From Thalassovita litoralis (GTDB taxonomy: Bacteria; Pseudomonadota; Alphaproteobacteria; Rhodobacterales; Rhodobacteraceae), in the NCBI RefSeq assembly GCF_900182725.1, contig NZ_FXTO01000005.1:1-64000 (forward strand): a stretch of 64,000 nt of DNA. Direction: 5' to 3'. The notes under the pieces are model-generated. The model was not told where the DNA came from and searched no databases. It was given only the letters and a program-made list of their open reading frames with translations. Below are positions 22,280 to 53,372 of the stretch, in pieces. Made by a program: the position numbers and the translations under genes. The first letter of the stretch is position 1, and every line of letters starts with the position of its first letter.

Positions 22280-23377
22280 ATGGCTTTCAAGACTGACAAA
22301 CCGACATTATCCCCCTCAGATGCACTTGTGGATGCCCCGGCTGGCGACGGGGAGCACCGGGACCGAAACGCCATTGCCCTGCCCTCTCATGTCGCGGGGT
22401 CTGGCGCGATGGATCGGCTGGTGGATACGGCACGCGGCTATGCCCGCGCGGCAGCCTCGGACAATACGCTAAAGGCCTATGCGAAGGACTGGGCGCATTT
22501 TGCACGCTGGTGCCGATTGAAGGGCACCGATCCCCTGCCCCCTTCGCCGAACCTGATCGGGCTTTATCTGGCGGATCTGGCGGCCCCTGCGGACAAGACC
22601 CCTGCCCTATCGGCAGCCACCATAGACCGCCGCCTGTCTGGCCTTGTCTGGAACTACGCGCAGCGCGGCATGGTGCTGGACCGGCGCGACCGTCACATCG
22701 CCAGCGTGTTGGCCGGGATCAAGCGCAAGCACGCACGCCCCCCGGTGCAAAAGGCCGCGATCGGGGCCGAAGACATCCGCGCCATGATTGCCACCCTGCC
22801 CTATGACCTGCGCGGTCTGCGCGACCGGGCGATCCTGTTACTGGGCTATGCCGGGGGCCTGCGTCGGTCCGAGATCGTCAGCATTGATGCCCACAAGGAC
22901 GACACCGCGGATTCGCGGGGCTGGGTCGAGATCACAGAGCAAGGCGCCCTGCTGACTCTGAACGCCAAAACCGGCTGGCGCGAGGTGGAAATCGGGAGTG
23001 GATCGTCGGAACAAACCTGCCCCGTACATGCGCTGGAACAATGGCTGCACTTCGCCCGGATCGACTTTGGCCCGATCTTTACCGCCACATCGCGCGATGG
23101 CAAACGGGCGCTGGACAGACGCCTGAACGACAAGCACATCGCCCGACTGATCAAGCAAACGGTGCTGGATGCTGGCATCCGGTCTGACCTGCCAGAGCGT
23201 GAGCGGCTGGCGCTGTTTTCCGGCCACAGCCTGCGGGCGGGTCTGGCCAGCCACGCCGAGGTGGACGAGCGGTATGTGCAAAAACATCTGGGCCATGCCA
23301 GCGCCGAAATGACCCGCCGCTACCAGCGCCGCCGCGACAGGTTCCGCGTCAACCTGACCAAAGCCGCCGGGCTGTGA
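22280..23377 (+). CDS. Tyrosine recombinase / site-specific integrase
   Basis: A 365-residue tyrosine recombinase. A SAM-like core-binding domain covers about residues 50-160 (NTLKAYAKDWAHFARWCRLKG). The catalytic domain shows the first arginine in GYAGGLRRSEIVSI, the HxxR box in GHSLRAGLASHA, the second histidine in HLGHASAEMTRRY and the nucleophilic tyrosine in that same stretch. It neighbours the parAB genes and may resolve replicon multimers, as plasmid-borne XerC/D-like enzymes do. It ends next to two parS-like palindromes. A role in integration is the alternative. Confidence 0.87.
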   Translation: MAFKTDKPTLSPSDALVDAPAGDGEHRDRNAIALPSHVAGSGAMDRLVDTARGYARAAASDNTLKAYAKDWAHFARWCRLKGTDPLPPSPNLIGLYLADLAAPADKTPALSAATIDRRLSGLVWNYAQRGMVLDRRDRHIASVLAGIKRKHARPPVQKAAIGAEDIRAMIATLPYDLRGLRDRAILLLGYAGGLRRSEIVSIDAHKDDTADSRGWVEITEQGALLTLNAKTGWREVEIGSGSSEQTCPVHALEQWLHFARIDFGPIFTATSRDGKRALDRRLNDKHIARLIKQTVLDAGIRSDLPERERLALFSGHSLRAGLASHAEVDERYVQKHLGHASAEMTRRYQRRRDRFRVNLTKAAGL

Positions 23378-36368: not shown

Positions 36369-36590
36369 GATTTTCTCCTCGCTCATGGTTGCGGGACGGT
36401 ACACTGACCGTATGCGGAAGCAAAGACCGCGCTGATTGAAAACGGCGAAAATCCCAAGGTTCAAATCACATTAGAATCGGCGTTTTTGATCGTTTGGTGC
36501 AACTTTCGGATGTTCCGCGGGCCGGATCATACAGGTGGCGGGCAGCGGAATGACCTGTGCGAATTTGCGAATATGTATCGAATGGAAAAC

Positions 36591-36603
36591 TATGGACTCC
36601 ATA
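36591..36603. promoter_or_regulatory. Palindrome in the 36369-36711 intergenic region
   Basis: TATGGACTCCATA is a perfect palindrome around a central C. It carries the same TCCATA/TATGGA half-sites as the IclR candidate sites at 31 kb, but facing outward. The region of 343 bases divides the SDR gene from the adhesin locus and must hold promoters for both. Apart from this palindrome and AT-rich stretches nothing else was identified. Confidence 0.4.
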
Positions 36604-36711
36604 AGATAGTTTTTGCACCCGTTGTTGCCAGCGCAGCGACGGCTCGATGCAGGTAAACTCGATCAGAGTATCCGCAATGACGGATTGGGCAAACCGCAGC
36701 GAGGCAGAACA

Positions 36712-37383
36712 ATGCGACAGATCGAGTTTTCTGAGAAGCGCCCATCGGGCGATTTTCGCCGTTCAGGGCAAGGTTATCAAAAATCACTGATGTTGGCGGC
36801 GGTTCTTGTCGGGGCTTCGGCGTTGTCTGTGCAGGCGAATGGATTGGGTGAAGACCGATCCTGGCAGTTTGATACCAGCGCGGACAAGGCGAATAAGGCT
36901 GCGGTGCTTGATCTGATCGAACGTAAAAAGGGCGGGTATTTCGATAGTTTCGACACGACCGTTAACTATTACATCGGGACGCAGATCAATTGCAGCAATA
37001 CCGCATCCGCGACCGGGAACATCGCCGATAACGCGCAGACGGGGAATGCACCTGATGTTTCTGCTGATGGCACACTGACGGCCGATTCCACGGGGAACAT
37101 CAGCGATAGCACCAGCACCACCGACGGGCTGGGCGATAGCGGATCTGTTGATGGCTCGCAGACCAATACGGGCGATGTCGATTCGTCGGTTTGGGGAAGC
37201 CGTGTTGATGGCAGCAACGTGCTGAACCTGGATGGTAGCAATCAGCATCTTGACAATATTCAGGATAACTCGGGCGACCAGATTGCGACGGTGGACAACA
37301 GCACCGCCTGCGACATGGGGGGGAGCACCCTGACAGGAAACGTTACTGTTGATCCGACCGGGACATCCGGCGCGTTGAATTGA
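36712..37383 (+). CDS. Small secreted protein of the adhesin locus, HfaA-like position
   Basis: A 223-residue exported protein. After a charged N-terminus comes the hydrophobic signal LMLAAVLVGASALSVQA and a likely cleavage before NGLGED. The mature part is low in hydrophobics and rich in Ser, Thr, Asp and Asn, with two cysteines (QINCSN and STACDM) that could pair. The stretch NTASATGNIADNAQTGN matches the repeat motif of the 1601-residue protein downstream. ATG at 36712 follows GAGGCAG; the frame opens further upstream without a signal. It may be a minor subunit or anchor of a surface fibre. No known family was recognised with confidence. Confidence 0.72.
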   Translation: MRQIEFSEKRPSGDFRRSGQGYQKSLMLAAVLVGASALSVQANGLGEDRSWQFDTSADKANKAAVLDLIERKKGGYFDSFDTTVNYYIGTQINCSNTASATGNIADNAQTGNAPDVSADGTLTADSTGNISDSTSTTDGLGDSGSVDGSQTNTGDVDSSVWGSRVDGSNVLNLDGSNQHLDNIQDNSGDQIATVDNSTACDMGGSTLTGNVTVDPTGTSGALN

Positions 37384-37394
37384 GGGCATTTATC

Positions 37395-38303
37395 ATGAGC
37401 AAATTTCGAATTCATGCCCTTTTGGGCGGGGTCGCTGTGGTTGTCGCCGGATGTGCGGAACCGCAGCCCGATATGAAACGGGTACAACTGGCCGAGGATC
37501 AGTTGCCGGTTTTGTTGTCGTCGGGCGTGCGCCCCAATAATACGCCGGTCACTCCGGCGTTGCGGTGTTATGGCAAGGAACTGAAAAAAGCGGGCAAAGG
37601 CGGCATCGGCATCGCGGTGGGCGATATTCGCGATTACACCGGCAAACAGAACGATGGCGAAGGCACCGAGATCACCCAAGGCGGGGCTTTGATGGCCTAT
37701 TCCGCGCTGGGGGAAATGCAGCCGGGTATTTCGTTGTATGAACGGTTTGACACGCGGATTGCGGATGCGGAACTGAATTACATCTCGCAACGGCAACTGG
37801 GCGATGGCGGCACGCACGAGGTCGACGACCCCAAGACCGGCGAAAAGAACGAAGTCAAATGGAAGCCGTATTTCGGCGGCTCTGTTCAGCAATCGGATTA
37901 TTTCATCGTCGGTGGGATTACCGAGCTGAATTACAACATCCAGTCCGGCGGGGGCGAGGCGTCCGTGAATAACGTGGGGCCGTTGGGTCGGACCTTTACC
38001 ATGAATGTTGCGGTCGATCTGCGGATCGTCGGAACGCAATCGCTGCGGGTCTATGACACGGTCAGCGTACAAAAACAGATCAGCGGTTACGAGGTGGGTT
38101 TCGATATTTTCCGCTTCTTCGGATCGGATCTGTATGACCTGAATCTTGGCGCGAAAAGCCAAGAACCGCTGCAACTGGGTGTGCGCATGGCGATTGAAAC
38201 CGCTGTGCTGGATCTGGTGCAGACAGTGACGGATTTACCCTTTGAATCCTGTGCAAATCAGCCGCCGTTGGTGCCTGCGGATGCGCCGCTGAACAAGCTG
38301 TGA
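37395..38303 (+). CDS. CsgG/HfaB-family outer-membrane secretion lipoprotein
   Basis: A 302-residue lipoprotein of the CsgG superfamily. The signal ends in a lipobox VVVAGC with cysteine 21. Family motifs are GIGIAVGDIRDYTGKQND, ALMAYSALGEMQPGISLYER, DYFIVGGITELNYNI and TMNVAVDLRIVGTQSLRVYDT. CsgG forms the outer-membrane channel for curli, and HfaB anchors the holdfast in Caulobacter. The gene starts 11 bases after the small secreted protein and precedes the large repeat protein, so it is the likely exporter or anchor of both. Holdfast-type loci place hfaB between hfaA and hfaD in the same order. Confidence 0.88.
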   Translation: MSKFRIHALLGGVAVVVAGCAEPQPDMKRVQLAEDQLPVLLSSGVRPNNTPVTPALRCYGKELKKAGKGGIGIAVGDIRDYTGKQNDGEGTEITQGGALMAYSALGEMQPGISLYERFDTRIADAELNYISQRQLGDGGTHEVDDPKTGEKNEVKWKPYFGGSVQQSDYFIVGGITELNYNIQSGGGEASVNNVGPLGRTFTMNVAVDLRIVGTQSLRVYDTVSVQKQISGYEVGFDIFRFFGSDLYDLNLGAKSQEPLQLGVRMAIETAVLDLVQTVTDLPFESCANQPPLVPADAPLNKL

Positions 38304-38334
38304 CCAGTCGGGTGTGAGTTTGCGCGAAAGAGAT

Positions 38335-38375
38335 ATTCAGGCAACCGAATGCCCTCAGCGGGCGGGTGCCTGAAT
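38335..38375 (+). promoter_or_regulatory. Hairpin between the CsgG-like and repeat-protein genes
   Basis: ATTCAGGCA (38335-38343) and TGCCTGAAT (38367-38375) form a nine-base perfect stem with a 23-base loop in the 160-base gap. It is not followed by a T-run. It may protect or attenuate the downstream message, setting different protein amounts. Confidence 0.5.
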
Positions 38376-38463
38376 GTGATCTAACGAAAATGTGTGTCGC
38401 GGTGATGGTTCGGAGATTCCCGTGCTTTGCCCGGCAGACCATTTGAAACAAAGGAAAAATATC

Positions 38464-41400
38464 ATGAAGCAGACTGAGAGTCTCAAGGGTCGTGTCGGCA
38501 CTGCTGGTCGCGCCCTTCTGCTTGGAAGCGCGGCTGGTGTCACGCTGTCCATGTTCATGGCCGTTGGCGTGGCAAATGCACAAAGCGCGTCAGTGGCGCT
38601 GTCGCTGAACACAACTTCGGTCGCAATTGCCGATCTGCCTTCGGTGCTGGATCAAGACAACACAGCCGCTGTTGCAGCAACCGCAAGCGGCGCAGCCCTG
38701 TCGATCATCGAACGTACTTCGGGTAACATCACGCTGTCGTCCGTGACGGGCGTTCTGGCGGATAACCTGGTTTCGGCATCCGCAACGGGCAACACCAGCG
38801 ATTCGACGGTTCAGCTGAACGTCAGCCCGACGCTGGCGGACGACACAGTGGCCGTGGCGACTGGCCAGTACAGCAACGGGACCGTTTCGGCGCTGGCCGA
38901 AGACAACGTTCATCGCGTTCTGATTTCCGGCGTTTCGGGCGGAACGGCAACGCTGACCGGCACGCTGGCCGTGACGAACAACGATGTGACGGCAACCGCC
39001 ACAATGAACAACGCGGATGCGTCGATCACCGTTGCGGGTGGCGTCAGCCTGGCAGGCACAGATTCGGGTGCGTCGGTGGCTACCGATGCAACGGCTGTCG
39101 CAAACCCCGATCTGGTCGGTTCCGCCGATCTGGTGATCGCAACTGTTCAACAGGCAGATGCATCGACCACAGCCGAGATTGACGGTTGGGACGTCGAAGA
39201 TACCGTCGATGTGATGATTGAATCCGCGCTCAATGCAACCGTGACCGTTTCGGGTAGCGATCTGGCGGCTTCGGCCACCGGCAACACGCTGACCGCGGCA
39301 CTGGATGCGACCGACACCAGCACAAACGCAGTTGGCGCTTCGGTTGCGGTGGCTGGTTTCCAGGTTCTGGACGGCAGTGTTGCAGCTACTGTCACTGACG
39401 GCGATATCGGGTTGGAAGTTGGTGTTGACGAAGAGTGGAATGTATCCGGCTACATCGGCAGCTCGACTATTGCTGAGACCGGGAACAATGTAACGGCATC
39501 CGCAACCGGCAATAACAGCGATCAGAGCGTGGCGTTGACCGCGAATTCGCTGGTTGGCGATGTTGCAACGGCTGGTCTGAGCGATTCATCGACGGCAGCA
39601 TCTGGCGGTATTCAACTGCTGGCGACCGCAGACGTCGTTGTGACCAACGTGCAAGAACAGGATGCCTTGGCATCTGTGACCGCAATGGTTGACGAGTCTA
39701 CCATTGCCATGCGCCTTTCGTCTGCAAGCAACAATGTTACCGGCTCGACCGCGAACCTGACTGCCAACCGTTTGGCCGCGCAGGCCGTGGGGGCTGTGGC
39801 CTCTACCGACCTGACGCTGACCGCCAATGCGATCGACGCAACCGGCGCAGTGGCCAGCGTGCAGTCCAACGATGGCGATGTGACGGCGACGGTGCAGTAT
39901 GGCGATATCGTTCTTACGAACGATGACGATTATACCAATTCGTCGGTCCATGTGGATGACAACCGGATCACCGCGCTGGCAGCGGGTGTGCAGGCGGCTT
40001 CGTCGCTGACGATTGCTGAAGGCACCAACAACCTGTCCATCGCCGGAAATTCGGGTGGTGTGACCACGGTTGCCTTGGCGACACCCACTGAAACCATGCA
40101 GCCGACCGTGAACGCGGCCTATGCGCTGAGCAACGATCAGTCCTCGACCGGGGATGTTGCGGCTGAAAACCTGTGGAACGCCATCTCGGTTTCTGGTGCA
40201 GATGATAGCTGGTCCAGTGTGACCACGTTGGACAACAACGTTCTGTCTGCTGCGGCAAATGCCCAGACGGCCAGCAACGCTGTTTCGCTGTCCTTCAACA
40301 ACCTGACCGGAACGGCAACCACGGAAACCGGATCGACCACGGTATTGGCTGCTGCCGCAAATGCACAGACATTCGCGGGCGGGTCGGTGTCGGCCGTGAC
40401 CTATGGGTCTTCTGGCAACCCGCTGAGCTCGTCCTATAATGACGAAGCCCCGGATTCGTCGATCAGCACCTCGTCCAACATCGTGTCTGCCAGTGTCATT
40501 GGCAACCGGACGTTGGAAAACAGCGTGACTGTTGATCCGACCAATCTGGTTATGGCGTCCAACAGCCAAGTGGGTTCTATCTCCTCGGTTGAAGGTGTTG
40601 AACAGTCTGCGCATCTGATCGTGACCAGCTTGCAGGAAGTTCAGGATGCAACCCTGATCGCCAGCCAGAACAGCGGTGGCAGTTCCAACCTCATCAGCAC
40701 CGATGTGTCGAATTGGGAGCTTTATAACTCGTCTGTTGTATCGGACAGCAACCTGATGACCGTATCCGTCACCGCCAACAGCGCGGTTAACGATATGGCC
40801 GTTGGCAGCGCCGCCACCGCAGAAGTGACCGCATCGTCGGCCTTGGTGAATGGTCAGATCGTCGACGCCACCAATCTGACGGCAGAGCTGGGGATCGAAG
40901 GCGTTGAAGGCTATGCCGGTTATTCGACGGCCAGCACGTCAAATGCTGCGACAAGCAGCGGCGGGAATGTTGTTCAGACTGGTGGTTCGACCACTCCGGC
41001 TGATACGACCGATGACACGTATGTGAACCAAGGTAATGACATCACGTTGACCTTCACAGGAGCGTTGACGACCGAGGAACAGGCGGCCCTGACGGCAGCA
41101 GGTTTCAGCAGCGTTACCGCAACGTCGGCGGTCTTCGCCAGCGGCGCAACGGTTACGAATATCGCCTCGGTTTCGATGCTTGTGGATATTGGTGACTCTA
41201 TCGCAGTCGACGAAACCATCACCGTGACTGGCTTCACCTTTGAAGGTCAGGCAACGACGCCGAACGGCGCTGGTGTTACGGTCTTCTCTGACGATCTGGT
41301 GGCCTCGACGGTATCTGTCAGCGACAACACGCTGGCCAGCACCATTCTGGGCAACCAAGCTGTGAACACGCTGGCGGCAGAAGCCACCACGCTGGGCACG

Positions 41401-43269
41401 GTGCAGGTTAACGTTGCTGGTGCGGACATTACGACCGGTACTCCAAGCACTGCGGTTGTGACTGCGGACCATGCGCTGCTGAACGAGCAAATCGCTGTTG
41501 CCAGCGCTGCGACCAGCACTGTTTACGGTACGTTCGCGATTGACATCAACGACAACAATGGTGCGTCGGGTTCGACTGTTCTGGTTGATGGTAACACCAT
41601 CGAAGCTTCGGCAACTGCGAACAGCGCAACCAATGCTGTGAACCTGACGGCGACGAACGCCGATACCACGGCTGGTCTGGCAAACACGCAAGACAACTTC
41701 ACGGATGTGATCACCACTGCGGATATGATGGTGTACACCAACGCCGCATCCATTGACTCGACCGTGTCCATGTCTGACAACGTGAACCAGAGCCTGGCAA
41801 CCGGCAACAGCGCGTCCAACAGCGTTGCGATGGCAGCCACCAACGTCGGTTCGGTTTCGGGTGACGATGCGTATTACGATGGCGCTGCTACGGCAGACCT
41901 GACGCTGATGTCGTACCAGAATTCCGAATTCGGTCCCGGTTTTGGTTCGGGTGTTTCGGCTGTCGCTGATACCACGATCTTCAACGGCGATATGTTGGAT
42001 ACCGATGTCAGCCCGATCGAAACCAGCACCTTTGCTATGGACGGTAACGTGACGGTTGCGCAGGCAACTTCGAACACTGTGGCGAACGTTATGTCTGTCG
42101 GGTCGGCTGACACGGCAAACACCAACGCCAGCGCGTTCTTGGGCAATGCTCAGGACAGCACGCAGTTCGTGACCGCAACCAGCACCGCGTCGCAGGAACT
42201 GACCTTGGAATCTACCTTGGATACGATCCTGAACAGCAGCGTATCGGTTGATGGCAACGTCACTACCGCACGCGCAACGGCCAACAGCAGCACCAACCAG
42301 ATGTCTGTGGCTGGGGCCAATATCATTGCGGGTTCGGGTAACGATGCTTATGCGGATCTGGATTATTGGGCATTTGACGCGGCATATGTCGTTGCAAACG
42401 ATCAGTATTCCAACAGCGCGATCAATGCGACCGCAAGCGCAACCAACAGTGTTGACCTGACATCGTCTGACAATGCGCTGGATGCTTCTACGGTTAGCCT
42501 GAATGGCAACGTTGTGCAGGCTTATGCAACTGCGAACATGGCATCGAATTCGGTGCTGAATGTTGGCGGGTCCGCAACGGCCAACCTGAACGCAACTGGT
42601 CTGCTGTACAACGAGCAGGACAGCGATGGTCCGGTTGTTCAGGCCTATGCAACCAGCGTTGTGACTGCAACGGCGGATGCGGTGGATGCTGCAACTGTTG
42701 GCGCGGCATTGAACGGCAGCTCGCTGTCGATCGAAAACAACGTGTCGGTTGCGCTGGCACGGGGTAACGTTGCCAGCAACAGCATGAACGTTTCGGCGGT
42801 TAATGCGACGGTTGGGAACGGCGCTGCTGCAATCAACGATAGCTTGGGTGTCGTGAGCGCAAGCTACGCAGTGATCAACGATCAGTCCAACTATACGTCG
42901 ATTACGGCTGTCAACGACGGTTCGACCTATGGCGCAGCACTGAACGGTGGCCTGTTCTATGATGGCGAAAGCGCAATGCTGGGCAGCAGCCTGTCTGTGA
43001 CTGGCAACGTTGTTCAGGCGGCTGGCTATGGCAACATCGCCACCAACAGCCTGACGCTGACCTCGCTGAACAGCGTGGACAACGATGCGACTGCCGCAGT
43101 CTACAGCACCCAGTACAACACTGGCACTGTGACCTCGACCGTATCGAACGCGTCGATCGGCAGCAGCAGCCTGGGCGCTCTGACCACCGGCACCGTTTCG
43201 GTTGGCGGCAACACGGTCAGCGCATCTGCGGTTGGTAACCTGGCCACCAGCACGATCACCCGCAACTAA
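38464..43269 (+). CDS. Giant secreted repeat protein, putative HfaD-like or curli-like adhesin
   Basis: A 1601-residue protein. The Sec signal ends near residue 39 (GVTLSMFMAVGVANA). The mature chain has no visible cysteine and is dominated by Ala, Ser, Thr, Asn, Val and Asp. About 15 imperfect units, roughly 90-110 residues apart, share a strand-like motif of the form S-x-V-S-x-x-x-N-x-V-x-A-x-A-x-G-N-x-A-x-N-S, for example SLSIENNVSVALARGNVASN. Most units also carry an N-D-Q or N-E-Q motif some 45 residues later (ALLNEQIA, VVANDQYS, AVINDQSN). ATG at 38464 follows AAAGGAAAAAT. This suggests a beta-solenoid or amyloid-type fibre exported by the CsgG-like protein. Confidence 0.75.
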   Translation: MKQTESLKGRVGTAGRALLLGSAAGVTLSMFMAVGVANAQSASVALSLNTTSVAIADLPSVLDQDNTAAVAATASGAALSIIERTSGNITLSSVTGVLADNLVSASATGNTSDSTVQLNVSPTLADDTVAVATGQYSNGTVSALAEDNVHRVLISGVSGGTATLTGTLAVTNNDVTATATMNNADASITVAGGVSLAGTDSGASVATDATAVANPDLVGSADLVIATVQQADASTTAEIDGWDVEDTVDVMIESALNATVTVSGSDLAASATGNTLTAALDATDTSTNAVGASVAVAGFQVLDGSVAATVTDGDIGLEVGVDEEWNVSGYIGSSTIAETGNNVTASATGNNSDQSVALTANSLVGDVATAGLSDSSTAASGGIQLLATADVVVTNVQEQDALASVTAMVDESTIAMRLSSASNNVTGSTANLTANRLAAQAVGAVASTDLTLTANAIDATGAVASVQSNDGDVTATVQYGDIVLTNDDDYTNSSVHVDDNRITALAAGVQAASSLTIAEGTNNLSIAGNSGGVTTVALATPTETMQPTVNAAYALSNDQSSTGDVAAENLWNAISVSGADDSWSSVTTLDNNVLSAAANAQTASNAVSLSFNNLTGTATTETGSTTVLAAAANAQTFAGGSVSAVTYGSSGNPLSSSYNDEAPDSSISTSSNIVSASVIGNRTLENSVTVDPTNLVMASNSQVGSISSVEGVEQSAHLIVTSLQEVQDATLIASQNSGGSSNLISTDVSNWELYNSSVVSDSNLMTVSVTANSAVNDMAVGSAATAEVTASSALVNGQIVDATNLTAELGIEGVEGYAGYSTASTSNAATSSGGNVVQTGGSTTPADTTDDTYVNQGNDITLTFTGALTTEEQAALTAAGFSSVTATSAVFASGATVTNIASVSMLVDIGDSIAVDETITVTGFTFEGQATTPNGAGVTVFSDDLVASTVSVSDNTLASTILGNQAVNTLAAEATTLGTVQVNVAGADITTGTPSTAVVTADHALLNEQIAVASAATSTVYGTFAIDINDNNGASGSTVLVDGNTIEASATANSATNAVNLTATNADTTAGLANTQDNFTDVITTADMMVYTNAASIDSTVSMSDNVNQSLATGNSASNSVAMAATNVGSVSGDDAYYDGAATADLTLMSYQNSEFGPGFGSGVSAVADTTIFNGDMLDTDVSPIETSTFAMDGNVTVAQATSNTVANVMSVGSADTANTNASAFLGNAQDSTQFVTATSTASQELTLESTLDTILNSSVSVDGNVTTARATANSSTNQMSVAGANIIAGSGNDAYADLDYWAFDAAYVVANDQYSNSAINATASATNSVDLTSSDNALDASTVSLNGNVVQAYATANMASNSVLNVGGSATANLNATGLLYNEQDSDGPVVQAYATSVVTATADAVDAATVGAALNGSSLSIENNVSVALARGNVASNSMNVSAVNATVGNGAAAINDSLGVVSASYAVINDQSNYTSITAVNDGSTYGAALNGGLFYDGESAMLGSSLSVTGNVVQAAGYGNIATNSLTLTSLNSVDNDATAAVYSTQYNTGTVTSTVSNASIGSSSLGALTTGTVSVGGNTVSASAVGNLATSTITRN

Positions 43270-43282
43270 GTGGATGCTCGAT

Positions 43283-43307
43283 CCCTTCCGCCCTTTGGGC
43301 GGGAGGG
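43283..43307 (+). terminator. Hairpin after the repeat-protein gene
   Basis: CCCTTCCGCCC (43283-43293) pairs with GGGCGGGAGGG (43297-43307), one G-T wobble, around a three-base loop. It precedes the terminator at 43321 and may help stabilise the 3' end. Confidence 0.5.
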
Positions 43308-43320
43308 GCAGAAAAAATGG

Positions 43321-43352
43321 GATGGCGGGGGAATATCCCGCCATCTTTTCTT
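43321..43352 (+). terminator. Rho-independent terminator of the adhesin operon
   Basis: GATGGCGGG (43321-43329) and CCCGCCATC (43337-43345) form a nine-base perfect stem with a seven-base loop, followed by TTTTCTT. It separates the adhesin operon from the next gene at 43371. Confidence 0.85.
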
Positions 43353-43370
43353 GAAAAGGGATAAAGATAG

Positions 43371-43988
43371 ATGAAACGCACGATGAAACTTGCCGCTGGG
43401 TTTGCGTTGGCTCTGGGTGGGCTGACGACAGGGGCAGGGGCCGCAACAGACGCCGGTCTTTTTGCCGCGCGCGGAATTGGGGCGCGGGCCTGCGGCGATT
43501 TGGCTGTGGCCTCGAACGAGCAGCAAGTCACGGCCCTGCGGATGGAGCTGGCGGCATGGATCGCGGGCTACATGTCTTCGGTAAACCGGACCTCGGGGCA
43601 GACGTTTGATGCTATTCCGGTGCAGAATGTTCAGGCGTTGGCGGAACTGACCCGCGGCATCTGTGCCAATAACACTGATAAGCTGGTTGAAAACGTATTC
43701 AGCGCGTTGGTGAATGGCTTTGCGGCGCTGGCGCTGGCTGGGCAGTCTGAAATGACCACGCTGCGCAACGATAAATATCAGGTTGCCGTGCGGGCCGATA
43801 CGCTGACGGCTGTGCAGAACTTCTTGGTGGCGAACAGCTATCTGGACGCGAAATTCGCCGACGGGCAATATGGCCCCAAAACCGCGACTGCCCTGAAGGC
43901 ATTTCAGGAAAAGCGCAAGATCGTACAGACCGGCGTGCCGGATGCGATGACCCTGTTCCTGATTGCAGAAGCCCTGAAAGCGAACTGA
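43371..43988 (+). CDS. Exported protein with C-terminal peptidoglycan-binding-like domain
   Basis: A 205-residue exported protein. The signal MKRTMKLAAGFALALGGLTTGAGA is followed by a helical, cysteine-containing region (RACGDLAVAS and RGICANNTD, two cysteines that could pair; residues about 40-120). The last 65 residues resemble a PG_binding_1 domain (LTAVQNFLVANSYLDAKFAD, GPKTATALKAFQEKRKI). It may sit in the periplasm at the cell wall and support the secretion apparatus upstream. It lies after the adhesin terminator and 31 bases before a glycosyltransferase gene. Confidence 0.72.
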   Translation: MKRTMKLAAGFALALGGLTTGAGAATDAGLFAARGIGARACGDLAVASNEQQVTALRMELAAWIAGYMSSVNRTSGQTFDAIPVQNVQALAELTRGICANNTDKLVENVFSALVNGFAALALAGQSEMTTLRNDKYQVAVRADTLTAVQNFLVANSYLDAKFADGQYGPKTATALKAFQEKRKIVQTGVPDAMTLFLIAEALKAN

Positions 43989-44019
43989 TTCAGTTCTGCC
44001 AGCTCGGAAAGAGATCCCC

Positions 44020-45252
44020 ATGACCCAGAAGAAAAAAGTCCTGTTCCTGAGTGAATCCTGTGTGCTGGACCCCAACAGCGGGGCGGCGATTGAAATGATG
44101 GGCTGGCTGAACATCTTGACGGCCCGTGGCTATGACTGTTCGTCGGTCACGATGTCATTGTTTGACGGGACTACCGAATTCCCGATGGGCAAGGATATTT
44201 TCCCAAATCTGGACCTGTCCCAGAATGTCGGAAAACGTCTGCGCTGTTTCATCAACAAGGTAGAACATAATGTGTTCTACACCGGGACCAGCATTGGCCC
44301 CAAAGTCACGGTGTCGATGGTGGACAAGTTCATCATGGCCGCCGCCGAGGATATTCGGCGGATCAGCCCGGATGTGGTGGTGTGTTACGGCGGGCGGAAC
44401 CTGATACCGCTGTTGAAACTGGCGCGGTCCAAAGGGGCGCGGACGGTGTTCTATCTGTGCAACGCCAGCTATCAGCAAGACCGCCGCGAAGTGTTCGATT
44501 ATATTGATCAGGTCGTGACGCCTTCGGATGCGCTGGGGGATTTGTACCGGGATCGGCTGGGGCTGGAAGGTATCCAAACGGTGCCGAACCGTGTGCAGCG
44601 GTTCTTCCCGGCCAAATCCCTGACCCAGAAATTCCTGTTGGAACGGCAGCGCAACGGCTTTGTGACCATGATCAACCCCGATCTGTCCAAAGGCGGGTCG
44701 ATCTTCCTTCAGGTTGCCAACCTGTTGCAGACGCGGCGGCGGCCCACGACCTTTTTGGCCGTAGAAAGCCGCGCCACGCAAGAAGAGGTCGAGGCCATGA
44801 TCAACGGTGCCAGCCAGATCCGCAATATCTGGTGGGTGCAGCGGCAGACCAATATCCGGGCCGTGCTGGCGCGGACGGCGGTCTTGATGGTGCCGTCGAT
44901 TTATTTCGAAGCTGCGGGCCGTGTGATCGCCGAGGCGATGCTGGCGGGCATTCCGGTTCTGGCCACGCGCAATGGCGGTATCCCCGAACAATTGAACGGC
45001 GGCGGCACGTTGTTTGACATTCCGGCTGGGTTCAGCGGCAAGAACGCGCAATACATCCCGACGTTGGACGAGGTTGCCCCTTGGGCCGATCGTATCGACG
45101 AACTGATGATGAAAGACGCGGCATATGTTGCGGCCTGTAAACGCGCACTGACTGCCGCCGATAAATTCGCCGCCGAGTCCGTGGATCAGATGATTGTCGC
45201 GGTTATCGAAGGGGCCGATGTACAGGCAGAAATCGCCGAACCCGTGGCCTGA
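44020..45252 (+). CDS. Glycosyltransferase family 4-like protein
   Basis: A 410-residue GT-B-fold glycosyltransferase. The N-terminal domain opens VLFLSESCVLDPNSGAAIEM and the C-terminal donor-binding domain carries VLMVPSIYFEAAGRVIAEAM and AGIPVLATRNGGIPEQL, the conserved EX7E-type region of GT4 enzymes. It would transfer a sugar from a nucleotide donor in the cytoplasm, probably onto a surface glycan. A small membrane protein gene starts two bases after it. Confidence 0.82.
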   Translation: MTQKKKVLFLSESCVLDPNSGAAIEMMGWLNILTARGYDCSSVTMSLFDGTTEFPMGKDIFPNLDLSQNVGKRLRCFINKVEHNVFYTGTSIGPKVTVSMVDKFIMAAAEDIRRISPDVVVCYGGRNLIPLLKLARSKGARTVFYLCNASYQQDRREVFDYIDQVVTPSDALGDLYRDRLGLEGIQTVPNRVQRFFPAKSLTQKFLLERQRNGFVTMINPDLSKGGSIFLQVANLLQTRRRPTTFLAVESRATQEEVEAMINGASQIRNIWWVQRQTNIRAVLARTAVLMVPSIYFEAAGRVIAEAMLAGIPVLATRNGGIPEQLNGGGTLFDIPAGFSGKNAQYIPTLDEVAPWADRIDELMMKDAAYVAACKRALTAADKFAAESVDQMIVAVIEGADVQAEIAEPVA

Positions 45253-46998: not shown

Positions 46999-47046
46999 AC
47001 ATGTGACAAGGGGCAGGCCGTTGCGGGCGTGTCCGGGACGAACGAT

Positions 47047-47682
47047 ATGCCCATTATTCGCTGGAACACGAAACTGATCTATTTCGCGCATATCCCGAAA
47101 TGTGGCGGTGCGTCGGTCGAAGCTTATCTGCAAACCGTTACACGGGGCGGATTGGGATTTCTGGATAATTCATATCTTCTGCGGGACAGCGATGCGCGTT
47201 GGGGTAAGACATCGCCGCAACATGTGGATGGTGCGACGGTGGGGCATATATTCGGCACGGGGTTCTTTGATGCGCAATTCGCGGTCTGCCGCGATCCGGT
47301 TTCCCGGTTCCAAAGCGCATTCCGGTTTCAGCGACAGGTGGAACGGACGCTGCCCCCGGATTTGGACGTTGATACCTTTATCGACGGGTTGAGCGCGGGG
47401 GATATTCAGAAAAACGGGTTTCTGGACAATCATTTCCTGCCGCAGTCGGCCTTCCTGATACCGGAAAAGCCCTGCCATATTTTCAAAATCGAAAACGGGT
47501 TGGGCCGGGCAAAGCAATTCATCGACGATTTGCTGTTTGGCAATGCGCTGAACCAACCAATGCCCCATCGCAATCGCGGGGTAGACGGGGGGCAAGGGAT
47601 TGAAATCTCCGAAGGTGCCAAGCGCAAATTGTATGCGCTTTATGCGCAGGATTACGACCTGTTGGGCTATGCAAAAGGCTGA
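47047..47682 (+). CDS. Sulfotransferase-family protein
   Basis: A 211-residue protein with the PAPS-binding loop FAHIPKCGGASVEAYL at residues 13-28 and a second site in FAVCRDPVSRFQSAFRF, both typical of bacterial type 2 sulfotransferases. It would move a sulfate group from PAPS to a glycan, a common decoration of marine surface polymers. ATG at 47047 is preferred over a GTG 18 bases upstream because of the GGGACGA upstream. It closes the glycan gene run. Confidence 0.8.
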   Translation: MPIIRWNTKLIYFAHIPKCGGASVEAYLQTVTRGGLGFLDNSYLLRDSDARWGKTSPQHVDGATVGHIFGTGFFDAQFAVCRDPVSRFQSAFRFQRQVERTLPPDLDVDTFIDGLSAGDIQKNGFLDNHFLPQSAFLIPEKPCHIFKIENGLGRAKQFIDDLLFGNALNQPMPHRNRGVDGGQGIEISEGAKRKLYALYAQDYDLLGYAKG

Positions 47683-49964: not shown

Positions 49965-50582
49965 TCAGGCGATTCCTGCTTCGCGGGCCAGCATGGCGGC
50001 GTGGGTGCGGTTTTTGGCGCCCAGCTTGTTACAGATCGCGCGCAGGTGCATTTTCACCGTGACCTCGGTCAGGTCTTGTTCGCGGGCGATTTCCTTGTTG
50101 GTGTTGCCGGTGCAAAGTGACCGCAGGATGGACCGTTCCAGTGGGTTCAGGTTCTGGATCGGCGGGCCGTCGGTTGGGCCTTCGATCTGATCCTGATGAA
50201 ACGCGGCGGGCAAAAAGATTTCACCCGATGCGATAAACTGAATGGCATTGGTCAACGACCGGGCCGGTAGGGTTTTCGGGATGAACCCGCGTGCGCCCAG
50301 ATTGATTGCATCGTTGACCGTTTCACGGCGGGCTGTCCCGGAAAACAGAACGGTCGATCCGGGGGCGTTGGCCGCGACCACGGTTTGCAGTCCTTGCAGC
50401 CCGTGCATTCCCGGCATCGCAACATCCAGCAGGATCACGTCAAAGCTGCCTGTGTCTTCGATTTGCTGAATCACCTGATTCACGTTTTCGCTTTGGGATA
50501 CTTCAAAATCACCGCCTTTTTCCAAATGCGAGGCGACGATTTCGCGGATAAGTTTGTGGTCATCAGCTACCAGAATACGCAT
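49965..50582 (-). CDS. NarL/LuxR-type response regulator
   Basis: A 205-residue regulator. The receiver domain has the acidic pair in ILVADDHKLIRE, the phosphoacceptor aspartate in VILLDVAMPG and the lysine in FIPKTLPARS. The LuxR helix-turn-helix is at residues 140-200 (NTNKEIAREQDLTEVTVKMHLRAICNKLGAKNR). ATG at 50582 follows AGGAGGTCC, and longer upstream frames lack similarity. It probably serves the hybrid kinase encoded 225 bases upstream. It is paralogous to the regulator at 56755. Confidence 0.9.
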   Translation of the reverse strand: MRILVADDHKLIREIVASHLEKGGDFEVSQSENVNQVIQQIEDTGSFDVILLDVAMPGMHGLQGLQTVVAANAPGSTVLFSGTARRETVNDAINLGARGFIPKTLPARSLTNAIQFIASGEIFLPAAFHQDQIEGPTDGPPIQNLNPLERSILRSLCTGNTNKEIAREQDLTEVTVKMHLRAICNKLGAKNRTHAAMLAREAGIA

Positions 50583-50807
50583 TTTGCTCGGACCTCCTGT
50601 CCATTTTCTTTTTGCGTTTTGCAAGGCGGTTTCGTTCGGGCAGTCGGAAAAGCAAACAGCGCCCGGTCCGTCCGGTTGGATTTGAGTTGAGTGAAAGTAG
50701 CCCAACGGCATGGCCCGGTGTATAGGGGCGAAACTTTATTTCCCGGAACTATCTTTTGCGCACCCGATCAGCGTTGCCCAAGGGGGTGGTGGGGGTGTTC
50801 AGCGGGA

Positions 50808-53372
50808 TTACAGCCGGAATTCACGGCGGCTTTCTTCCAGCAGGTGAGTTGCGATTTCGGCAAGATCGCTATTGGCGGGGTCGCGCCCGGCCAGTGCCAT
50901 GCACTCGGCCTCGGATAGGGTTTCTGACAAATCCAGAAGGCCCATAACCCCACAAGACCCCACGGCATTATGAATTGTCGCCGCACGTTGCGGCAGGGGC
51001 AGGGCGGCGGCCTGCATGGCTTCGATGGCAAGGGTGGCGTCGGCCAAGGTGGCCCGCATCAGGTGAACGGCGGTATCGGCCCCCATCAGTTCCTTCAGTT
51101 CCTCCATCCGGGGCGATGGGGCGTCAGGTGCGGGTGTGGGGGCAGGGCTGTGGGCGGGGGATGTACCCAGAAATTTTTGCAATGTTTCGTTTAGCTGGCT
51201 TTGGCTGACGGGTTTGACCAGCACCTCATTCATCAGCTGTGCCGGGCCTTTGCCTGCGGTGGCGTCAATCAGCGCGGTCACGCCAAGGATCACGGATTGC
51301 GCCGAAGGGCCGCCGCCAGTGCGGATGGCATGGGTGGCGGCGGGGCCATCCATGACGGGCATGGAAAAATCCATCAGGATAACGTCATAATGCCGCTGCT
51401 TTGCCTTTTGGACCGCGACTTGCCCGTTATGGGCAGGATCGGCGCGATGGCCCAGCCGTTTCAGCATTTCGCACATCAGGGTCAGGTTGACCTCGTTATC
51501 CTCGACCACAAGGATATCCAGATTATCCAGAGCGCGCGCCGGGACGGGTGCGGGGGTGGTGGCGACGGGGGCGGGGGTGTCCAGATTGGACAGGCTGACG
51601 GGGATGGTGAAATAAAACCGGCTGCCCTGTCCAACGACGCTGTCCAGATGCAGTTGCCCGCCTTGCTGTTCTACGGCCAGATTGGCGATGGACAGGCCCA
51701 GCCCGGTCCCCATATTCGCGTCAATTTCGCTGCGGCCCACGGTTTCAAAGGTTCTGAAAATCCGTTCCTGATCTTCGGGGGCGATGCCAATCCCGGTGTC
51801 TTCGACGCTGACGTTCAGGCGCAGTTGATCGTGGGCGTCGCATTCCAGCGTCAGGGTCAGCGTGATCTGCCCGTTCTGGGTGAATTTGACCGCATTGCCC
51901 GCCAGATTGTACAGCGCCCGCGAAAAGGCAAAAGGCAAGCCCTGTAGCCGGTACAGATCATGCGGGCCGCGGGTGATCAATTGCAGCCGGTTGTTGCGCT
52001 GCGTGGCCAACGGCTGCAATTCATCAATAATGTCGGCGGCGATCCGGCTGGGCGAGAATTCCTCGGGGCGTGATTGGATTTCGCCCATCCGGGTCAGTTC
52101 CAGCACATCGTTCACCTGTGCCAAGGCGCGTTCGCTGCAATCGCGTGCGGTTTTCAAAAGGGCTTGATTGGCGGCGTTCAGGTCGTGTTCGTCGATCAAC
52201 CCCAATGAGGCCATCAGCCCATGCAGGGGGGTCCGCATTTCATGGCTCATGGTGGCCAGAAACATGCTTTTGGCTTGGGCGGCTTGCTGGGCCTGTTCCA
52301 GCGCGTCCTGTAGCTTTTCCCGCGATGTGACCTGTTCGGATACATCGCGGATATAGGCAACGATGACCGGCTTTCCGGAAATGTCGGTATCAGAAACAAG
52401 GGACACTTCGACAAACAGATCCGATCCGTCTGCATGTCGCGCCGGAAGCAGCACCGGGCCTTTGCCCATGACCCAGCCCTGTCCGGTGTCACGGTACTTT
52501 TCGACCTTTTTGATATGCCCCTCGACCATATGGTCAGGGATGATCAGGGTTTCGATGCTTTGGCCGACCATTTGTTCGACCGGATAGCCGAAAATCTGTT
52601 CGGCCATGTCGTTGCAGAACAGAACGCGGGCGTCGAGATCGGCAATAATCACGGCGCTGAGGGTCGAATTGAACGCCGTCGTCAGGGATGACGCGACGCG
52701 CGCGGCCTGAACCGTGCGTTTTTCCAATTCCCGCCAAAGCCGCACGATCAGATAGGTGCCAATCCCCATCAGCACGAACAGAATAAGGGACTGCGCCAGA
52801 AAGCGGATGAACAGCCTTTCCTCTTGTGCGCGTCTTTCTGCGGCGACGTAGGCAAATATCTGTACGGCATCGACGGCAACGCTGCGGACAAGGGGGGCCA
52901 TGTCCTCTAGCTCGCGGTGCAGTTTTTCTATTGTTGGGTCCAGATCGTTTACGGTCAGCGCGTCGATCTGTGCGGCCATTTCATCCCGAGAGGCCACCAG
53001 CCGGGCAAGTTTGGCTTTGTACCCGTTCGAAAGATTCAGACGCCGCATTGCGGTTTCAAGTATATCTATGCGGCTATAGTAAACATCGAATTCGCGCCGG
53101 ACCGCAGACAGGTATTTTTCGGTTTCGTCTGCGGTCCGTGGTGTGTGTTCAACGGTCAGCAAAAGGCCCTGATAATCGACCTCTAGCTGTGCGGTAATCC
53201 AGCCTTTGTTATCGGAATCGGCAGAGCGTACAGCCTCTAGTCGTTGCCGGAAATTCATCGCGCTGGCCAGCAGTGCGATACATGTCACCAGCATCAGAAA
53301 CAGCAGGATTGTGATATGCACCTGCTTTGGCTGTAGTCTGCCTTGAGGAAAATCAAAGGCTGCGCGTATCAC
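50808..53372 (-). CDS. Hybrid sensor histidine kinase (PAS, HisKA, HATPase, REC, HPt)
   Basis: An 854-residue membrane kinase. Helices near residues 20-40 and 190-215 flank a helical periplasmic sensor region. A PAS domain follows (about 230-345), then the H-box MSHEMRTPLHG, the ATP-binding region (DTGIGIAPEDQERIFRTFE, GTGLGLSIANLAVEQQGG), a receiver with its aspartate in VILMDFSMPVMDG and a C-terminal HPt-like domain (ATIHNAVGSCGVMGL). It starts with GTG overlapping the stop codon of the sulfite-oxidase-fold gene, so the two are translated together. Phosphorelay to the adjacent NarL regulator is likely. Confidence 0.9.
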   Translation of the reverse strand: MIRAAFDFPQGRLQPKQVHITILLFLMLVTCIALLASAMNFRQRLEAVRSADSDNKGWITAQLEVDYQGLLLTVEHTPRTADETEKYLSAVRREFDVYYSRIDILETAMRRLNLSNGYKAKLARLVASRDEMAAQIDALTVNDLDPTIEKLHRELEDMAPLVRSVAVDAVQIFAYVAAERRAQEERLFIRFLAQSLILFVLMGIGTYLIVRLWRELEKRTVQAARVASSLTTAFNSTLSAVIIADLDARVLFCNDMAEQIFGYPVEQMVGQSIETLIIPDHMVEGHIKKVEKYRDTGQGWVMGKGPVLLPARHADGSDLFVEVSLVSDTDISGKPVIVAYIRDVSEQVTSREKLQDALEQAQQAAQAKSMFLATMSHEMRTPLHGLMASLGLIDEHDLNAANQALLKTARDCSERALAQVNDVLELTRMGEIQSRPEEFSPSRIAADIIDELQPLATQRNNRLQLITRGPHDLYRLQGLPFAFSRALYNLAGNAVKFTQNGQITLTLTLECDAHDQLRLNVSVEDTGIGIAPEDQERIFRTFETVGRSEIDANMGTGLGLSIANLAVEQQGGQLHLDSVVGQGSRFYFTIPVSLSNLDTPAPVATTPAPVPARALDNLDILVVEDNEVNLTLMCEMLKRLGHRADPAHNGQVAVQKAKQRHYDVILMDFSMPVMDGPAATHAIRTGGGPSAQSVILGVTALIDATAGKGPAQLMNEVLVKPVSQSQLNETLQKFLGTSPAHSPAPTPAPDAPSPRMEELKELMGADTAVHLMRATLADATLAIEAMQAAALPLPQRAATIHNAVGSCGVMGLLDLSETLSEAECMALAGRDPANSDLAEIATHLLEESRREFRL

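Follow-up and report, generated by a model that had tools for sequence, protein, structure and literature searches.

A conserved CsgG/HfaB-linked gene module with a giant repeat protein, proposed to build a surface fibre in Thalassovita litoralis and other proteobacteria

The stretch of DNA analysed here (hereafter the window) comprises 64,000 nucleotides, positions 1 to 64,000 of contig NZ_FXTO01000005.1 of the alphaproteobacterium Thalassovita litoralis. Three consecutive genes on one strand of the window, here named A, B and D, encode a small secreted protein, an outer-membrane channel of the CsgG/HfaB type and a giant secreted repeat protein. Channels of the CsgG type export curli, the best-studied functional amyloid. 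The original prediction, made from the sequence alone, held that a channel of this type lies between a small secreted protein and a 1601-residue repeat protein in the order hfaA-hfaB-hfaD, and that the locus could be a new branch of CsgG-dependent fibres; its coordinates, strand and protein lengths proved right. The three genes recur together in many genera, and they probably serve a surface fibre or fibrous coat.

Locus and conservation of the module

36712..37383, forward strand: gene A, small secreted protein of 223 amino acids (aa), proposed anchor or nucleator
37395..38303, forward strand: gene B, CsgG/HfaB-type outer-membrane lipoprotein channel of 302 aa, lipid-bearing cysteine Cys20
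38464..43269, forward strand: gene D, giant secreted repeat protein of 1601 aa with 15 recognised core repeats, proposed fibre subunit

Genes A and B are separated by 11 base pairs (bp), and B and D by 160 bp. All three start with ATG (at 36712, 37395 and 38464), and the stop codon of D ends at 43269; the start of A is our choice, and its open frame extends back to a TTG at 36613. The signal peptides, which are of the Sec type in A and D and of the lipoprotein type in B (ending at Cys20), were identified by eye from the sequence.

Bacterial and archaeal genomes were scanned with an alignment of five B sequences, which yielded 358 relatives. The best 80 of the 358, all HfaB-like loci, were analysed together with the window, giving the 81 loci to which the counts below refer. 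Because this set was picked by the similarity of B, it says nothing about the 278 lower-scoring relatives. Gene A is present just upstream of B on the same strand in all 81 loci. Gene D is recognised in 73 of the 81, lying downstream on the same strand in 71, upstream in one (L102) and divergent in another (L103), so that the predicted gene order is conserved. The best D frame per locus exceeds 900 residues in 68 of these 73 cases (range 953 to 2375 as raw open frames), and the remaining frames are interrupted by contig ends or split into several. Among the eight loci without D, four (L041, L064, L092 and L096) end within about 0.7 kb of B, and L088 has 2.4 kb after B; the other three are considered below.

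Clustering the 1111 proteins encoded in the flanks of the loci by BLAST placed A in one cluster from 77 loci, B from 80 and D from 66. The next most widespread clusters were EAL-domain proteins (17 loci, 8 genus labels), PAS/kinase proteins (16 loci, 12 labels) and the product of a fourth gene, E (15 loci, 12 labels). Genus labels were assigned by us, with each unnamed metagenome-assembled genome (MAG) counted as one, and cluster domain names were taken from a few members each. By these counts A, B and D stand apart, and E is no more widespread than the regulators. A, B and D are a conserved module.

Named hosts found in the scan are Marivita, Shimia, Roseovarius, Pseudotabrizicola, Aureimonas, Sphingomonas, Novosphingobium, Variovorax, Comamonas, Ramlibacter and Halomonas. 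A 3.3-kb contig from a Planctomycetaceae MAG (L026) groups with Roseobacter rows in the tree of B proteins, and its placement in that family may be a binning error. Also, an Allopusillimonas locus (L031, 11504-20834) has four consecutive D-like open frames, as a duplication of the giant gene would give.

The channel, its secreted partners and gene E

Protein B is a member of the CsgG family (PF03783, 58.4 bits against a cut-off of 20.8), and a profile search of the PDB with B reached CsgG structures at 6.6e-15. Both the CsgG model and the HfaB equivalog model (NF037935) match all 36 aligned B proteins, including that of the window. The window's protein scores 211.7 bits against the latter model, which has a cut-off of 300, and thus is not an HfaB member by NCBI's own rule. 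In a tree of 62 CsgG and HfaB proteins, whose HfaB rows we labelled from locus content and model hits, the window's B falls with Roseobacter relatives in a clade of 31 rows of the system (support 99/99). The seven HfaB rows form their own clade (100/96), and the window's B lies outside it and also apart from E. coli CsgG. This separate clade supports the proposal of a new branch of CsgG-dependent systems. Six further rows of the system (Halomonas, Arenicella, Stagnimonas and three alphaproteobacterial ones) fall outside both the 31 and the HfaB clade in an order the tree leaves open, and thus a single origin of all B proteins of the system is not proven. One alphaproteobacterial genome (G104; loci L008 and L019-L022) carries five CsgG-type genes, whose group joins the HfaB clade with modest support (85/83).

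Most relatives have an OmpA-like C-terminal extension that the window's B does not carry. Open frames of B reach 436 residues or longer in 69 of the 81 loci, some of them with over-long starts. The extra C-terminal part, used as a profile, finds Pal/OmpA structures at 9.3e-6; matched singly, only five of 36 B proteins hit the Pfam OmpA model.

Protein D matches no Pfam or NCBIfam family above chance, a search to E 10 giving one hit, at E 10. Its repeats exceed chance: the core pattern matches 10 times, and 500 composition shuffles give 1.09 matches on average and never more than 4. A core profile built from the motifs in the window (consensus SSVSVSGNSVSASATGNSATNSLTL) recovers the 15 copies in the window's D; across the 74 D proteins searched it finds 937 copies, and all but one of the proteins contain some. 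The units are about 60-95 residues long, and start-to-start spacings peak at 60-74 and 80-99 residues. When 130 units from 21 chosen proteins were aligned, out of 455 units of 68-95 residues, two asparagines inside the core were found in 98% and 97% of units and a glutamine outside the core in 100%; as the units were located by means of the core, the asparagine conservation is partly by construction. At the C-terminus, an alignment of 32 chosen D proteins has 24 invariant columns, 20 of which are N or Q. The mature D of the window contains 0 Lys, 0 Cys, 9 Arg and 146 Asp plus Glu. Among D proteins longer than 900 residues (n=69, first 60 residues left out) the median lysine content is 0.53%, and 58 have no cysteine.

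An AlphaFold2 model of the last 572 residues of D, built from 32 sequences, is confident (mean predicted local distance difference test score, pLDDT, 85.0; predicted template modelling score 0.86) and consists of strands only. The all-beta model runs to the C-terminus, as do the repeat units, and no cap domain is seen. We read this C-terminal part as a solenoid, on the strength of its repeating strand pattern and its structural neighbours. The VIA rows for the model are mostly beta-helices and solenoids of many functions, with SufB at Z 11.7, Vag8 at Z 9.5, the CsgA structure 8c50 at Z 8.8 (root-mean-square deviation 8.3) and RsaA at Z 6.4; they contain no clearly closer fold and say nothing for or against curlin. 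The arrangement may be new, although a missing match is no proof of that. A viral fold library gave one match at E <= 0.001, judged not meaningful (template modelling score 0.13-0.15).

Protein A has no Pfam or NCBIfam match at E up to 10. Its architecture comprises a signal peptide, a WQF.T..DK.N motif, a predicted helix, and then repeats rich in N, Q, S and T with TGN and Q.N.G motifs. Across 82 A proteins the consensus reads ANn.gEn.aWQFqT..Dk.n.Aa..D.i.kkk.GyY, followed by an NC, atGN and Q.NsG motifs and a C-terminal Q.N.G.Q.AsV.gStAC stretch, from which some members, such as that of L094, deviate. Five positions are invariant in an alignment of 40 A proteins, two of them cysteines. In the mature protein only short helices are predicted, at 50-53 and 56-73.

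The original prediction also noted an ASATGN-type motif common to A and D. The motif is present in both, though weak, and the likeness of A to the D unit is modest. Against the D core the window's A reaches 8.0 bits, above all of 50 shuffles; of three other A proteins, one likewise exceeds every shuffle and the remaining two fail to. Profile-profile comparison of A with the D unit gives a probability of 33.8% (P 4e-4, 64 columns).

Two further features follow D in the window.

43321..43345, no strand assigned: inverted repeat with a 9-bp stem, then a T-rich stretch, between D and E; possible terminator
43371..43988, forward strand: gene E, secreted protein of 205 aa with a C-terminal PG_binding_1 domain; accessory

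A scan of 36400-44100 found 9 terminator-like sites against 8.1 expected from shuffles. Gene E stands beside the module in 15 of the 81 loci, a count that stood at 19 before the exclusion of four Comamonas loci, in which the hit to the E profile (63-66 bits) lies far upstream. It is present in all four Rhodobacteraceae-type loci that have a short B and DNA past D (the window, L025, L027 and L029), and it was not found at the short-B loci L069 and L102. The idea that E replaces the OmpA-like extension of B fits only partly, as E also occurs beside longer B proteins. Downstream of E lie genes for a glycosyltransferase (44020-45252) and a sulfotransferase-like protein (47029-47682).

Relation to holdfast anchors and curli

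In Caulobacter, HfaABD anchors the holdfast, a very strong natural adhesive, and a CsgG-type channel is believed to export the proteins that hold it (PMC6707917). The module shares with HfaA-HfaB-HfaD the order of small protein, channel and large protein on one strand, along with a channel of the HfaB family. By eye, both systems also have small and large secreted partners rich in N, S, T and Q with A.GN and Q..N.G motifs. However, the window's B is under the equivalog cut-off and outside the HfaB clade, many relatives of B have the OmpA-like extension, and the window's D is about 4-7 times the length of four HfaD-like proteins compared (224-416 aa). Neither the HfaA nor the HfaD model matches A or D: none of the 40 aligned A proteins matches HfaA (NF037934) at E <= 1 (12 other families give single or double hits to the same 40, the best at E 0.044 or worse), and HfaD (NF037936) does not match the window's D. 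Neither HfaA nor HfaD was found in the host genome by model search, which detected the controls (for HfaA, from Caulobacter vibrioides).

An HfaA protein (L119) scores 14 bits against the A profile (E 5e-4 in a small search) and other HfaA proteins give nothing; alignment of A with HfaA by hhalign (12%) covers only a 20-column Q-N-G-Q-A stretch, and A as HfaA is rejected as a family claim. D is doubtful as an HfaD, with an alignment probability of 0.4% between the D unit and HfaD. With a hidden Markov model of the D unit, two of four HfaD proteins score higher than every one of 50 shuffles, and the other two do not.

With curli the module shares a channel with a CsgG domain, repeats rich in N and Q with regularly placed Asn and Gln, and the pairing of a small protein with a repeat partner. 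In contrast, the pattern QxGxxN occurs 0 times in the window's A and D and five times each in E. coli CsgA and CsgB; it totals 31 over all 74 D proteins and 5 over all 82 A proteins. The Pfam curlin model matches neither A nor D, and identification of D as curlin is unsupported. Furthermore, the D unit of about 60-95 residues differs from the curlin unit, given as 23 +/- 5 residues in PMC10192328. The WQF motif in the N-terminal part of A hinted at a CsgF-like plug, a reading that was rejected: hhalign of A with E. coli CsgF gives a probability of 0.1% and a score of 9.6, below the mean of 11.1 for 60 shuffles.

The system resembles curli and HfaABD in outline and is a member of neither by the tests run. 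This agrees with the expectation of little similarity to the classical HfaA, HfaD, CsgA and CsgB. Close HfaA and HfaD homologues, or an autotransported D, would have spoken against the original prediction; curated models find no such homologue, and D shows no autotransporter barrel (no Pfam match, and an all-beta model to the last residues). Among the results listed for open-licence PMC papers no description of the system was found, and one may exist elsewhere.

A sister CsgG-linked locus occurs in the same bacterial family (L140 5902-10185 in genome G014, L139 5999-10997 in G066, and L153 5402-9613 on a Loktanella salsilacus plasmid). Like the module, it encodes a short protein resembling A (E about 1e-7 in both G014 and G066) and a B-like channel with 33-34% identity. 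It differs in its repeat proteins, which in G014 and G066 show Q..A.N by eye and are not matched by the D profile (their raw frames in L139 and L140 are 381-502 aa long), and in the polysaccharide export genes nearby, seen in the sequence for G014 and in the annotation for Loktanella.

Proposed function, alternatives and distribution

Gene order, conservation, family membership, the repeat pattern and a confident all-beta model for the last 572 residues of D can be taken from the sequences themselves. On this basis the three genes, with an optional fourth, probably constitute a system for a surface fibre or fibrous coat, a CsgG/HfaB-dependent branch distinct from both curli and the Caulobacter holdfast anchor. 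What is known of the families, together with the linkage of the genes, suggests export through B and the roles of A and E; polymerisation and adhesion are likewise inferred. A, B and D would leave the cytoplasm via their Sec signals, B as a lipoprotein. B would then form a CsgG-like outer-membrane channel through which the unfolded chain of D, free of Lys and Cys, could pass. Outside, D might fold from its repeated beta units into a long rod resembling a beta-solenoid. A, with its D-like repeats and a conserved, partly helical N-terminal part, might be exported by the same channel and hold or nucleate D at the surface. E, or the OmpA-like extension of B in most other lineages, could tie the channel to peptidoglycan. 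A more tentative extension, which we regard as possible, is that the module represents a third major lineage of CsgG-dependent fibres across alpha-, beta- and gammaproteobacteria, with a giant single-chain beta-solenoid subunit of its own repeat type and a dedicated nucleator-anchor that plugs the channel.

Several results weigh against a fibre system of this kind. The loop of B at the CsgG constriction is shorter and different, and the alignment keeps none of Tyr51, Asn55 and Phe56, which we take to be the constriction residues of CsgG. A Foldseek search with the D model found no significant match among solved structures (best PDB E 0.31), and CsgA 8c50 is one among many middling VIA rows, so a curli-like fold is not shown. 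Tested against shuffles, the resemblance of A to D failed in two of four A proteins with the core and in two of four with the full unit, and the predicted structure of A alone is poor (pLDDT 49.9). At L095, L098 and L099 (3 of 81 loci) no D is recognised despite long flanks. Also, CsgF (PF10614) was not found in the host genome by a search that detected the E. coli control. This absence is not decisive, since about half of alphaproteobacterial curli genera are without CsgF according to PMC3521004.

The alternative that survives best, though we think it unlikely, is a polysaccharide anchor of the holdfast type, in which B exports A and D and these bind and hold exopolysaccharide without forming a fibre, as in Caulobacter HfaABD. 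The shared gene order, the related channel and the sugar genes after E are in keeping with such a role. However, the family tests and the HfaB clade set A, B and D apart from HfaABD, D is far longer than the HfaD-like proteins compared, and the glycosyltransferase and sulfotransferase-like genes of the window are not among the flank clusters common to four or more genus labels.

Somewhat more doubtful still is a single-chain tethered adhesin or S-layer-like coat, in which B exports D as an attached rod or sheet that neither polymerises nor requires nucleation, and A is an export accessory. The length of D could suffice for a stalk by itself, a homologue on a Variovorax plasmid is annotated 'S-layer family protein', and the middling structural neighbours include adhesin passengers and RsaA. 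Yet A shares repeat motifs with D, if weakly, and no cap domain closes the C-terminus of D. That D is an autotransported or type I secreted adhesin merely adjoining a CsgG homologue is very improbable: passengers such as Vag8 do appear among the middling neighbours, but D has no barrel domain and the linkage of A, B and D is conserved across many genera.

If the fibre reading is correct, the module would offer a new tractable model for how a huge chain (about 950 to more than 2000 residues) passes a small channel and assembles outside. The system occurs in genera such as Variovorax, Comamonas, Sphingomonas, Novosphingobium and relatives of Roseobacter, and for two of its three core proteins, A and D, no curated family was found. 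Some surface proteins that at present carry no annotation beyond hypothetical or S-layer might also be explained by it.

By protein search, B was detected in 17 of 147 genomes, including the window's own, and in the tree all ten other hits from the same family group with CsgG proteins of other types. Of 394 genomes of the family, three contain gene A: the host genome, G574 (probably the same MAG as L103) and, as a weak match, the sister locus of G066. Among the matches listed for the other eight genomes of the genus, none covers the A-B-D stretch at the DNA level, the listed matches being to flanking genes. This very patchy distribution fits transfer without proving it.

The original prediction placed the locus on an extrachromosomal replicon and considered it movable between strains. 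The first claim is not shown: the window's contig (C5, 174,981 bp) has no RepC or RPA gene, in a search limited to these replication types, and such genes lie on other contigs of the genome (RepC on C24, C27 and C33, RPA on C15). The contig also has no tRNA gene, which is compatible with a plasmid and with a chromosome. Movement finds some agreement in the patchy distribution and in a plasmid-borne relative, and that of the present copy is unproven. The relative lies on a complete, circular 292,938-bp plasmid of Variovorax paradoxus VAI-C (L152, 6336-17728; CP063168.1), where a replication initiation gene precedes the small gene by about 6 kb. Its giant gene was taken as D from its position, length and annotation. 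The plasmid module is flanked on either side by EAL-domain genes and has a Crp/Fnr regulator downstream, which suggests control by cyclic di-GMP. B-like channels occur in 12 plasmid records, only one of which covers 80% or more of the query. A tblastn search for D on plasmids gave no match, probably a limit of the search (low-complexity filter) and not absence, since the giant gene adjoins the plasmid B in Variovorax.

Other genes surround the module in the window. A few kb downstream, a LuxR-type response regulator and a PAS hybrid histidine kinase are encoded on the reverse strand at 49965-53372, and proteins of the window share flank clusters with regulators that lie close to certain other copies of the module. 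A gene for a phage-type integrase (22280-23377, forward strand) lies about 13 kb upstream.

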